A stretch of DNA of 64,000 nt, taken from the NCBI RefSeq assembly GCF_023147505.1, contig NZ_JAHXPB010000004.1, positions 124,001 through 188,000 of the forward strand. The letters are read 5' to 3'. The notes under the pieces were generated by a model that had not been told where the DNA came from, did no database searches, and saw nothing but the letters and a program-made list of their open reading frames with translations. The translations under genes were made by a program, and so were the position numbers. Positions 16,717-19,471 of the stretch are shown here, one piece after another. Each line of letters opens with the position of its first letter. Positions within the stretch are counted from its first letter, which is position 1. This DNA comes from Brevundimonas sp. EYE_349 (GTDB lineage Bacteria; Pseudomonadota; Alphaproteobacteria; Caulobacterales; Caulobacteraceae).

Positions 16717-16842
16717 ATGAAGGTCCGTAGCTCGCTCAAGTCCCTGAAGACCCGCCACCGCGACTGCAAGGTCGTGCGTCGCAAGGGCGTCGTCTTCGTC
16801 ATCAACAAGACCGACCCGCGCTTCAAGGCCAAGCAGGGCTAA
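16717..16842 (+). CDS. rpmJ: 50S ribosomal protein L36
   Basis: This 41-residue basic protein begins [11 protein letters not shown] and contains [12 protein letters not shown] and [15 protein letters not shown]. It is L36 of the zinc-free (C-minus, YkgO-like) type, because only one of the four usual zinc cysteines is present. It is the last small protein to join the large ribosomal subunit. A good promoter precedes it and a strong terminator follows. Confidence 0.95.
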
Positions 16843-16904
16843 GCGGGCGGGCCTGCGCGCCGCTTCGGCGGCGTGCGCGCGCAGCGTCTTGCTGACGATC
16901 CACA

Positions 16905-16933
16905 GGCTGCGGATTTTCATCCGCGGCCTTTTT
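16905..16933 (+). terminator. Rho-independent terminator after rpmJ
   Basis: Arms GGCTGCGGAT (16905-16914) and ATCCGCGGCC (16919-16928) pair along 10 positions with a TTTC loop and are followed by TTTTT. This is a textbook intrinsic terminator, 62 bases after the rpmJ stop codon. Confidence 0.9.
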
Positions 16934-17001
16934 CGTGTTCGCGGTTGTCGCGCGCCGGCCGGCATGGTTAGCGTCCGCGCCTGATTTCTGGAGTATTCCC
17001 C

Positions 17002-17277
17002 ATGGCTGACGACGCTTCGTTCGACGGTGGTCCCGACGTTCTCACCTCGACGGCGCAAGGGCGCCTGCGCACCATCATCGAGCGGCTGGAGCGCCTCGAA
17101 GAGGACAAACAGGCCGTCATGACCGACATGAAAGAGGTCTTCGCCGAGGCCAAGGGCGAGGGCTACGACGTCAAGATCCTGCGCAAGGTCATCCGCATCC
17201 GCAAGCAGGACAAGGCCAAGCGCCAGGAAGAGGACGCCATCCTGGACCTCTATATGTCGGCGCTGGGCGAGATCTGA
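17002..17277 (+). CDS. gapR: GapR-like nucleoid protein (DUF2312)
   Basis: This 91-residue, mostly helical protein matches the DUF2312 family, including Caulobacter GapR. GapR binds overtwisted AT-rich DNA ahead of replication and transcription complexes and stimulates type II topoisomerases. The family core is clear: STAQGRLRTIIERLERLEEDK, EVFAEAKGEGYDVK, and the DNA-contacting IRIRKQDKAKRQEEDA followed by LDLY. Its neighbourhood with a TacA-like regulator resembles, as I recall it, the Caulobacter locus. A small basic gene follows 12 bases downstream. Confidence 0.92.
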   Translation: MADDASFDGGPDVLTSTAQGRLRTIIERLERLEEDKQAVMTDMKEVFAEAKGEGYDVKILRKVIRIRKQDKAKRQEEDAILDLYMSALGEI

Positions 17278-17289
17278 GGCTGACCCGGC

Positions 17290-17601
17290 TTGAAGCGAAA
17301 ACCGCCGCCAAGCCCCTTTGAAGCCCAACGCAAGGCCGCTCAGCGCGCGGCCCTGAACGCCCTGAAACGCGCCCGCCGCTCGGCAGAGAAGGCGGGCGTT
17401 TCTCTGTCCGACTGGGAGGGCGAGTTCCTCGATTCGGTCGGCGAGCGGGTGAAGACCCACGGTCGCGCCTTCGCCGACCCCGAAAAAGGCGCGCCGGGCC
17501 AGGCCCTGTCCGCCATGCAGGGCCGCAAGCTGAAAGAGATAACCGCCAAGGCCAAGGGCGAAGAGCCGAAACGGCGGTGGGGCAGGAAGAGGGACCTGTA
17601 A
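17290..17601 (+). CDS. Small basic protein of unknown function downstream of gapR
   Basis: This 103-residue, lysine/arginine/alanine-rich protein has no domain I recognise. The only possible start is TTG at 17290, because an in-frame stop lies three codons upstream. A TGAGG sequence overlapping the gapR stop gives a plausible ribosome site 10 bases before it. Tight spacing suggests co-transcription with gapR. Charged, likely helical composition would fit nucleic-acid binding, but that is only inference. The first palindromic repeat begins 9 bases past its stop codon. Confidence 0.7.
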   Translation: MKRKPPPSPFEAQRKAAQRAALNALKRARRSAEKAGVSLSDWEGEFLDSVGERVKTHGRAFADPEKGAPGQALSAMQGRKLKEITAKAKGEEPKRRWGRKRDL

Positions 17602-17610
17602 CGTGATCCA

Positions 17611-17640
17611 TCATCCTCGGGCTTGACCCGAGGATCGGGC
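17611..17640. repeat. REP-like palindromic repeat, left copy
   Basis: This 30-base unit contains the near-perfect palindrome CCTCGGGCTTGACCCGAGG flanked by TCAT on one side and ATCGGGC on the other. The reverse complement of 17935-17964 is identical over all 30 bases. The copy sits between the stop of the small basic gene and the GIY-YIG gene, whose ATG is 19 bases downstream. Confidence 0.9.
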
Positions 17641-17659
17641 TGTCCGCAACTCTGCATTG

Positions 17660-18016
17660 ATGAGTGAGCGCAGACCTTTCATCGCGACCTATATTCAGTC
17701 TAGCCGCCCGCATGGTGTGCTCTACGTCGGGATGACGGCCAATCTCTTCGAGCGTGGCCGTCAGCATCGTGATGGCGCGGTCGAGGGCTTTGCGAGCCGC
17801 TACGGTTGCGGTCTTCTTGTCTGGTACGAGCCGTTGGAGTTGGTCACCAGCGCCAAGCGCGTTTGGAAGCTGGAACTGATCGAACGGACGAACCCCGGAT
17901 GGATCGACCTCTATCCCAGTCTATGCGGCTTGGCGCCCGATCCTCGGGTCAAGCCCGAGGATGACGGAGAGGGAAGTGTGGCGGCCTTTTTGAAGCGGTT
18001 GGAAACGGACGAGTAG
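17660..18016 (+). CDS. GIY-YIG nuclease-like protein, apparently missing the catalytic Glu segment
   Basis: This 118-residue single-domain protein belongs to the small GIY-YIG group (UvrC N-terminal-like). The signature is HGVLYVGMT, followed by an arginine in ERGRQH, then FASRYGCGLLVWYE and the tail WKLELIERTNPGWIDL. In typical members about 20 residues separate the WYE from the WKL motif and include an REK-type segment with the metal-binding glutamate; here only 11 lie between, so that glutamate seems lost. The C-terminal DPRVKPEDDG is encoded by the right palindrome. Codon use is less GC-rich than neighbours. It ends 3 bases from the convergent tacA-like stop. Confidence 0.85.
   Translation: MSERRPFIATYIQSSRPHGVLYVGMTANLFERGRQHRDGAVEGFASRYGCGLLVWYEPLELVTSAKRVWKLELIERTNPGWIDLYPSLCGLAPDPRVKPEDDGEGSVAAFLKRLETDE
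17935..17964. repeat. REP-like palindromic repeat, right copy (inside a coding region)
   Basis: This is an exact inverted copy of 17611-17640, placed within the last third of the GIY-YIG gene, where it encodes DPRVKPEDD. Together the two copies bound a 354-base unit. Confidence 0.9.
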
Positions 18017-18019
18017 GTC

Positions 18020-19471
18020 TCACCCCGCCTCCTTCAACTGACCTTCCAGCCCCTGCTCCCGGACCTTGCGGTAGAGGGTCGAGCGGCCGATGCCCAGGCG
18101 GCGGGCGATCTCGCTCATGTGGCCGGCATAAACCTCGATGGCGTGCTGGATCAGGTCGCGCTCGATGTCTTCCAGCGTCCGCAGATGTCCGCGGTCGTCC
18201 AGGATGCGGATGGGCTGTTCGCCGGCGGCGGCCGCCTCGGTCTGGGCGTTGGCGGCGGTTGCGGCCTGAAGCGGGCGGGCGTCGGGCAGGGGGGCGGCGA
18301 CCCCGGATATGGCGGGAAAATCGTGCGGTTGCAGGAAGGGCGCGTCTGCTAGGACGATGGCGCGGAACACCGCGTTTTCTAGCTGACGGACATTGCCGGG
18401 CCAGTCGAACCCTTGCAGCTGGGCCAGGGTCTCGGGTGCGCAGCCGGCGATCCGCCTGCCTTCCTCTGCATTGAATCGGGCGATGAAATGCTCGACCAGG
18501 GCCGGAATGTCCTCGCGCCGTTCGCGCAGGGAAGGGGCCTCGATCGGGAAGACGTTCAGGCGATAGAACAGGTCCTCGCGGAAGGCGCCGTCCTTGACCT
18601 GCTGGGCCGGGTCGCGATTGGTCGCCGAGACGATGCGCACGTCGATCTTGACCGGGCGCTTGCCGCCGACCGGGTCGATCTCGCCTTCCTGCAGGGCGCG
18701 CAGCAGCTTGACCTGCATGTCCAGCGGCAGTTCGCCGATCTCGTCCAGGAACAGGGTGCCGCCGTCCGCCTCCCGGAACTTGCCTAGCGTCTTGTCCACG
18801 GCGCCGGTGAAGGCGCCCTTCTCGTGCCCGAACAGGATGGATTCGATCAGATTGGAGGGCAGGGCGCCGCAGTTGACCGCCACGAAGGGCTTGCCTGCGC
18901 GGTCGCTGGCGCCATGCAGGGCGCGGGCGATCACTTCCTTGCCCACGCCGCTTTCGCCGGTGATCAAGACGGGGATGGAGGATTTGGCCGCCCGGGCGCC
19001 CAGCGCCTTGACCATACGCATGGCGGGGCTGTCGCCCACGATGTCGTCGAAACTGGTGCGGCCCTGGGCGCGCTTGGTCAGGCGTCCGACCTCGGCCGTC
19101 AGGCGCTTCATCTGCAAGGCGTTGCGCACCCCGATCAGCAGCCGTTCCGGCCCCACCGGCTTGACGAAGAAGTCCTGGGCCCCCGCCTGCATGGCCTTGA
19201 CCACCATGTCGATGCCGCCGTTGGCGGTCAGCACGATCACCGGCTCGGCGACGCCCGCGCTGCGCAGTTCGGCCAGACATTCCAAGCCCGACATCTCGGG
19301 CATCACCATGTCCAGCAGTATCAGGTCCGCCCCGCCGCCCTGGGTCATCCGGTCGATGGCCTCGCCGCCGCCCGTCGCATGGACCACGGCGTATCCATCC
19401 CGCTCCAGCACGGCCTGGATCAGCCGGCGCTGGGTCGGATCGTCGTCGACGACCAGAATGGTCTTGGCCAT
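18020..19471 (-). CDS. tacA: Sigma-54-dependent response regulator, TacA-like
   Basis: This 483-residue NtrC-family activator has three parts. The receiver domain (1-120) has phospho-acceptor aspartate in LILLDMVMP. The AAA+ ATPase (about 140-375) has Walker A GESGVGKE, the sigma-54 contact loop GAFTGA and Walker [12 protein letters not shown] Fis-type helix-turn-helix at the C-terminus reads [17 protein letters not shown]. In Caulobacter TacA is phosphorylated through ShkA-ShpA and drives stalk and polarity genes. The identification rests on architecture and proximity to gapR, so another NtrC paralogue remains possible. Confidence 0.8.

Follow-up and report, generated by a model that had tools for sequence, protein, structure and literature searches.

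Small GIY-YIG nuclease genes accompanied by CGTC-tagged REP hairpins: a candidate mobile pair in Brevundimonas and other bacteria

Genes for small GIY-YIG nucleases were found next to inverted, CGTC-tagged REP hairpins in many taxa, and we consider it likely that a single-domain GIY-YIG nuclease and head-to-head CGTC REPs together form a mobile pair that resembles the RAYT/REP systems but has an unrelated enzyme. The pair is described here from a locus of Brevundimonas sp. EYE_349, within a window that is the whole 64,000-nt stretch of DNA analysed. A first-pass annotation of this window had proposed a RAYT/REP-like partnership of nuclease and palindrome and had set two checks in advance, namely a comparison of palindrome–GIY-YIG adjacency with the background and a search for empty sites in sister species. 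The proposal is supported, and the likeness to RAYT/REP extends to the cognate specificity of nucleases and hairpins and to REP copy number; movement of the REPs by the nuclease is inferred.

Results

Architecture of the locus in Brevundimonas sp. EYE_349

The element is located between gapR (match to NF052541, the NCBIfam profile of the nucleoid-associated protein GapR) and a gene for a TacA-like regulator (Table 1), behind gapR as first annotated. The 103-aa ORF that precedes it (17290–17601) matched nothing in Pfam or NCBIfam at E 0.001, and no Rfam match was obtained in 16800–18800. Sequence comparison agrees with the original description of two 30-bp units around a small GIY-YIG gene (17611–17640 and 17935–17964) as exact reverse complements; the inverted match extends to 17607–17640 and 17935–17968 (34 nt, 97%), and the hairpin of each unit has a 9-bp stem and a 5-nt loop (ATCCTCGGG-CTTGA-CCCGAGGAT; z = −4.3 and −4.2). 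The inverted pair scored 31; at a threshold of 16, control positions taken from contigs of the named loci (see below) were bracketed in 4 of 4007 cases. Since repeats of half the score bracket just these few controls, chance is a poor explanation for the pair. The peptide DPRVKPEDD, which had been taken for the C-terminus of the protein, turned out to lie inside it: the long ORF (17657–18016) continues beyond the right palindrome and ends in DPRVKPEDDGEGSVAAFLKRLETDE. The 119-aa ORF scored 22.1 bits against the Pfam GIY-YIG profile, just below the cut-off of 22.6, and 22.6 in a genome-wide profile search in which in-frame neighbours were included.

Table 1. Features of the gapR-tacA region, in positions of the window.
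Feature	Position	Strand	Remarks
gapR, host gene, left neighbour	17002..17277	+	NF052541, 160 bits versus cut-off 140
103-aa ORF between gapR and element	17290..17601	+	kept in relatives with empty sites
Left REP, CGTC-type	17607..17640	+	tag decayed to CATC (17609–17612); hairpin 17613–17635, loop CTTGA
Small GIY-YIG nuclease ORF	17660..18016	+	ATG at 17660; in-frame TTG at 17657 as alternative start
Junction of 30-nt in-frame deletion	17853..17854	+	IRREKALKRW with the otherwise invariant Glu removed; position good to a few bases
Right REP, inverted copy	17935..17968	-	CGTC tag intact (17963–17966, minus strand); hairpin 17940–17962; inside the ORF
C-terminal peptide	17939..18013	+	encoded by the right REP and ~50 nt past it
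Sigma-54 response regulator (TacA-like), right neighbour	18020..19471	-	named tacA in the first-pass annotation

The palindrome is a CGTC-tagged REP

By its tag, stem and dimer arrangement, the window palindrome is a CGTC-tagged REP. In the available part of their text, Di Nocera, De Gregorio and Rocco (2013; PMC3733652) describe such REPs as carrying CGTC beside a stem that begins with AT, with a stem of 8–9 bp, a loop of 4–5 nt and, in most but not all cases, a short unpaired tail CCA. According to the same part, CGTC REPs are predominantly head-to-head dimers, dispersed, and present mainly in alphaproteobacteria, where they were found in every order examined; REPs favour positions downstream of coding regions, and the class includes neisserial dRS3 (= CGTC-1) and rickettsial RPE-4/6. 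The statement in the first-pass annotation that alphaproteobacteria widely carry this palindrome was right and had been published in 2013 under this name. The window units are like the REPs in that part of the text in the tag outside an AT-starting stem (CGTC in the right unit, CATC, one base off, in the left), in the size of stem and loop (9-bp stem ATCCTCGGG, loop CTTGA) and in dimer orientation, dispersed head-to-head dimers being present in the window genome, but their inner end is CGG instead of CCA, a tail that is present at many other loci.

The window genome (3.44 Mb) contains seven exact copies of the palindrome core and 28 matches with up to three mismatches, versus 7 for a reversed control pattern, and on top of the window pair it holds eight doublets with members 70–89 bp apart. 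Twelve gene-less doublets from two sister genomes start at CGTC (one at CGCC) and have unrelated outer flanks. As regards the enzyme, the available text of PMC3733652 states that CGTC REPs "apparently lack a dedicated transposase", reports no tyrosine transposase gene with CGTC REP flanks in the species checked and no other enzyme tied to these REPs, and treats the enzyme as an open question, whereas here the REPs are linked to a cognate GIY-YIG gene.

The nuclease family and its broken copy in the window

All 45 relatives in alignment A4 match PF01541, and an AF2 model built from this alignment had a pLDDT of 96.7. The nearest solved fold found with Foldseek was UPF0213 protein BH0048 (E 1e-3), with sequence matches to UPF0213 and UvrC too, followed by weaker fold matches to Slx1 and HIGLE (E ~0.02–0.03) and to the UvrC N-domain (E 0.5). 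The UPF0213/YhbQ-like, Slx1 and UvrC-N families share the fold and the Tyr, Arg, Glu and Asn that are conserved in GIY-YIG enzymes, and we know of no link between these families and REPs. PADLOC returned weak matches only (at most 2 of the 45 members per family), the phage search one weak match, and weak matches to group I intron endonucleases were seen for 9 of the 45 relatives.

The catalytic Tyr, Arg and Glu are present in 45/45 sequences of A4 and 29/30 of alignment A1. The single sequence without the Glu is that of the window copy, from which the 30 nt that correspond to IRREKALKRW of its relatives, catalytic Glu included, are missing. Judged from sequence, the window locus is a decayed copy from which the catalytic Glu is gone, and it has probably lost catalytic function. 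Broken copies occur in the window genome (G000) and in G120, G125, G192 and G212; next to tacA, the G120 copy has an internal deletion and the G212 copy a stop. Ten intact copies next to tacA gave a dN/dS of 0.065 with dS near saturation (41 of 45 pairs, after omission of two that were saturated and two whose dS was ≤ 0.03; broken copies left out), which indicates that intact copies of the nuclease domain are under purifying selection. Homologues are patchy: at E 0.001 any homologue was found in 104 of 121 genomes of the genus, and at E 1e-12 in 83 of 289 genomes of the class.

The peptide encoded by the right REP and the next ~13 residues are similar at several unlinked insertion sites of the subfamily. 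At four loci (L189, L190, L197 and L009), a peptide starting with DPR is retained, in altered form, where the DNA palindrome is gone. That the peptide outlives the palindrome suggests that the tail contributed by the repeat has been incorporated into the protein.

GIY-YIG genes are paired with tagged hairpins

Loci were collected by protein alone, both for the named loci and class-wide, with queries from loci whose flanks had already been seen. The named loci were the best 80 of 517 protein matches, each with flanking DNA of up to 10 kb; 27 of them, best matches included, were titled Caulobacter, Phenylobacterium or Brevundimonas. Among these best 80 of 517, the density of tagged hairpins was 4.84 per kb up to 200 bp from the gene versus 0.114 per kb at 1–10 kb (42-fold). 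For the per-locus counts eight loci at contig edges were omitted, and of the remaining 72 from the best 80 of 517, 63 had a tagged hairpin within 300 bp (both sides 39, one side 24, none 9), the corresponding count for control positions taken from those contigs being 206 of 3254 (both sides 4, one side 202). Adjacency of palindrome and GIY-YIG gene, the first check set in advance, thus came out far above local density. Under a stricter rule, matched inverted hairpins bracketed 37/72 loci versus 5/3313 controls.

The pairing recurs across many taxa. A class-wide sample from other alphaproteobacterial families (30 loci, one per genome, from the best-scoring 30 of 83 matching genomes) had tagged hairpins on both sides at 15 loci, on one side at 7 and on neither at 8, with a background of 0.18 per kb; by eye, stems vary between families, and a given gene often has matching stems left and right. 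Within the genus 101 loci were compared, the additional ones chosen from among the matches listed; per-genome counts are whole. By a loose rule that ignored tag and loop length, inverted repeats bracketed 70 of the 101 loci, versus 4 of 4007 control positions, which lay on contigs of the named loci; broken down by protein cluster, the counts were 26/31 (the window's cluster), 18/21, 12/13, 12/32, 1/3 and 1/1. By a strict rule, a tagged hairpin was present within 350 bp at 54/101 genus loci, a count held down because the odd tags or long loops of some subfamilies escape this rule. In a plasmid collection 33 records matched and six were read: REPs lay beside the gene in five (Azospirillum lipoferum, Sinorhizobium meliloti pSymB, Rhizobium sp. 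CIAT894, Shinella and Neisseria gonorrhoeae), and no REP was seen at the Rhizobium tumorigenes locus.

Two of these records have a particular setting. On plasmid AZO_p3 of A. lipoferum 4B, the GIY-YIG gene with its CGTC-type REPs is situated between sufB and sufC (L355:1366–1984). The N. gonorrhoeae record (2.2 Mb, filed as a plasmid) has a GIY-YIG gene, with no listed feature, inside a CGTC-1/dRS3-type array (L354:600–2200).

Hairpin type follows nuclease subfamily

The 101 genus loci fell into six protein clusters. In the window's cluster, REPs were present at 31/31 loci, mostly with the loop CTTGA, the two REPs of the window copy having been added to the loop tests by hand because the long ORF hid them from the script; in the sister cluster they were present at 20/21 loci, with a loop mostly ending in T. 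When loci sharing flanking DNA were collapsed, the dominant loop was CTTGA at 9/9 independent sites of the window's subfamily and ended in T at 8/8 independent sites of the sister subfamily (7 CTTGT, 1 CTCGT). Nuclease subfamily and hairpin type stay matched even inside one genome: in the nine genomes with both kinds, the observed match was reached in 0/1000 shufflings of REPs among loci within the genome. By eye, one other cluster has a REP tagged CGCTC and another has long-loop hairpins.

REP numbers are higher in genomes that carry the window's subfamily

Among the 121 genomes of the genus, 30 carried the window's subfamily, 74 other homologues only and 17 none, and the median number of REPs was 20.5, 6 and 1, respectively (Mann-Whitney p = 3e-8 for the 30 versus the other 91, relatedness ignored). 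Counting exact copies minus the two flanking ones, the values were 7.5 versus 1 (p = 5e-7, relatedness ignored). At least 20 REPs were also present in 14 genomes without the subfamily. A replicate of the copy-number comparison with another REP type met an exact motif that was too rare (4/289 genomes).

The only one of these 14 genomes inspected, G125, has 53 REPs, and in it a pair of intact REPs encloses a degraded remnant of the subfamily's nuclease (L351, G125:C1:2087913–2088210).

Elements differ in presence between sister species

Thirty gapR-tacA junctions, given by the best TacA matches of the 121 genomes, had their states called by eye, and six were omitted, four for lack of an anchor (G183, G196, G209, G199) and two because their anchor was just 13 nt long (G168, G221). 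Of the 24 readable junctions, the element occupied 11 and two were empty; six contained inverted-repeat DNA of a different kind, four a different gene (the single one tested was DUF805 by Pfam), and one fell outside these groups. Occupancy went through at least nine changes, gain or loss, on the TacA DNA tree, seven of them forced by well-supported branches, and was not clustered on the tree (435/500 shuffles as low).

The gapR-tacA junction (17601–18020 in the window; L062–L091) is an insertion hot spot of the genus, in which the GIY-YIG/REP element, inverted-repeat DNA or a DUF805 gene is found. The alternative inverted-repeat DNA measures ~150–190 bp and often reads CTCCTCCCCAC...GTGGGGAGG.

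Gene-less doublets vary in the same manner. Among the matches listed, the flanks of three of them were continuous in 9, 9 and 12 of 14 genomes; in the other 5, 5 and 2, the window genome among them, they were split, and at one site the filling between the split flanks was a doublet in both G125 and G120. Gene-bearing and gene-less elements thus both differ in presence between sister species, and empty sites, the object of the second advance check, were found at gapR-tacA as well as at gene-less doublet sites. At the polymorphic sites presence or absence of the insertion is clear, at a MAFFT resolution coarser than base level. At one further site (L036; G000:C16:47725–47819), the window genome has a gene-less doublet, and among the matches listed five genomes are uninterrupted, and G211, G151 and G120 have a GIY-YIG gene of another subfamily between both flanks; in G186 and G078 such a gene lies beside the one listed flank, and the same occupancy is probable.

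Two copies in G187, both near contig ends and with different flanks, are 99.3% identical over 423 bp and diverge outside a unit whose ends fall within the REPs. In another genome two copies share 81%, with similarity beginning about the left tag. Interiors of gene-less doublets compared with the gene element gave inner identities of 5.1 and 6.5 of 15 and outer identities of 5.25 and 5.75. In general the interiors do not derive from the gene element, and only one doublet of eight (L034) looks like a deletion product, which weakens or rejects the view that every gene-less doublet arose from that element by deletion.

Discussion

In RAYT/REP systems there are many gene-less doublets per genome and the enzymes show cognate specificity, and the same was found here. 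A further likeness to the RAYT/GTAG REP pairs (REPtrons, REPINs) is the single nuclease gene with inverted hairpin flanks (the RAYT side taken partly from the available text of PMC3733652). The two differ in enzyme, an HUH Y1 tyrosine transposase there and a GIY-YIG hydrolase here, and in tag, GTAG there and CGTC here, and Y1_Tnp (PF01797) had no match in the window genome at E 0.001. The repeats, then, belong to the published CGTC class, and the system resembles RAYT/REP without being a member of it.

Under the favoured reading of a mobile pair, the nuclease would recognise its own REP stem-loop when this is extruded or single-stranded, as Slx1 does branched DNA, and would nick or cut at the CGTC foot; host replication, repair or recombination would then copy the REP pair, gene included or not, to new sites. 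Cutting and transposition by the nuclease are predictions from sequence. GIY-YIG enzymes hydrolyse DNA and, to our knowledge, are not known to rejoin it, so the spread is expected to be homing-like or replication-coupled, unlike the cut-and-join chemistry of HUH transposases.

The main rival, which we regard as unlikely, sees the nuclease gene as a parasite that homes into existing REP doublets, the REPs themselves being moved by other machinery. GIY-YIG homing endonucleases of the I-TevI type share the catalytic domain, and a selfish mobile gene is plausible; here, no intron or separate DNA-binding module was seen and the gene is flanked by its own hairpin repeats. Homing would fit the occurrence of gene-bearing and gene-less elements at one shared site (L036), the near-identical G187 copies that differ outside a unit ending within the REPs, the doublet interiors that mostly do not come from the gene element, and the weak matches of 9/45 relatives to group I intron endonucleases. 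It is countered by the rise of REP numbers with the cognate nuclease, although a parasite might also prefer REP-rich genomes; in addition, the available text of PMC3733652 names no other CGTC-REP enzyme, and the window genome has no Y1_Tnp match at E 0.001. That RAYT (HUH Y1) transposases move the CGTC REPs, with the GIY-YIG gene as cargo, appears very improbable: GTAG REPs are believed to be mobilised by RAYTs (PMC3733652, available text) and a Y1_Tnp match exists in a control genome, Caulobacter vibrioides, but the window genome has none at E 0.001, and the same part of that paper reports no tyrosine transposase flanked by CGTC REPs in the species checked.

A host function, in which the nuclease is retained because it maintains the genome by trimming or resolving REP cruciforms, and remains near its substrate, is in our estimate improbable. 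It would accord with the strong purifying selection on intact copies, with a fold related to that of the branched-DNA nuclease Slx1 and with the possible location of 30/32 loci of one cluster at one site (by flank group, which shared repeats could inflate), but sits poorly with the patchy presence, the several copies per genome, the frequent change of state at one site and the broken copies in five genomes (G000, G120, G125, G192 and G212). To coincidence, by which REPs gather downstream of genes and the nuclease happens to be there, we attach next to no weight. The preference of REPs for positions downstream of coding regions (PMC3733652, available text) and the gapR-tacA hot spot speak for it, yet it is refuted at the level of association by the 42-fold local excess, the matched pairs on two sides and the subfamily-specific loops, and the association is repeated in other families and orders.

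Among the matches listed from open-licence PubMed Central (titles and abstract starts), no paper joins GIY-YIG genes with REPs; in the available portions of PMC12306157 and PMC6006769, the word GIY-YIG is absent and CGTC stands in the reference lists only. Of the readings weighed above, the mobile pair remains the one we favour, and for the missing enzyme behind the spread of CGTC REPs, a very common class of repeats, no better candidate than the GIY-YIG gene has yet come forward. The chances seem to us evenly balanced that single-domain GIY-YIG nucleases are the dedicated mobilisers of the whole CGTC REP superfamily, dRS3 included, and so constitute a second REP system that is hydrolytic and acts via host repair. 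With a cognate nuclease and a one-base loop difference between subfamilies, the question of the CGTC REP enzyme becomes directly testable. If confirmed, the pair would add an unrelated enzyme class to REP mobility, would explain peptides such as DPRVKPEDD inside proteins, and would make small hairpin-specific nucleases worth characterising.
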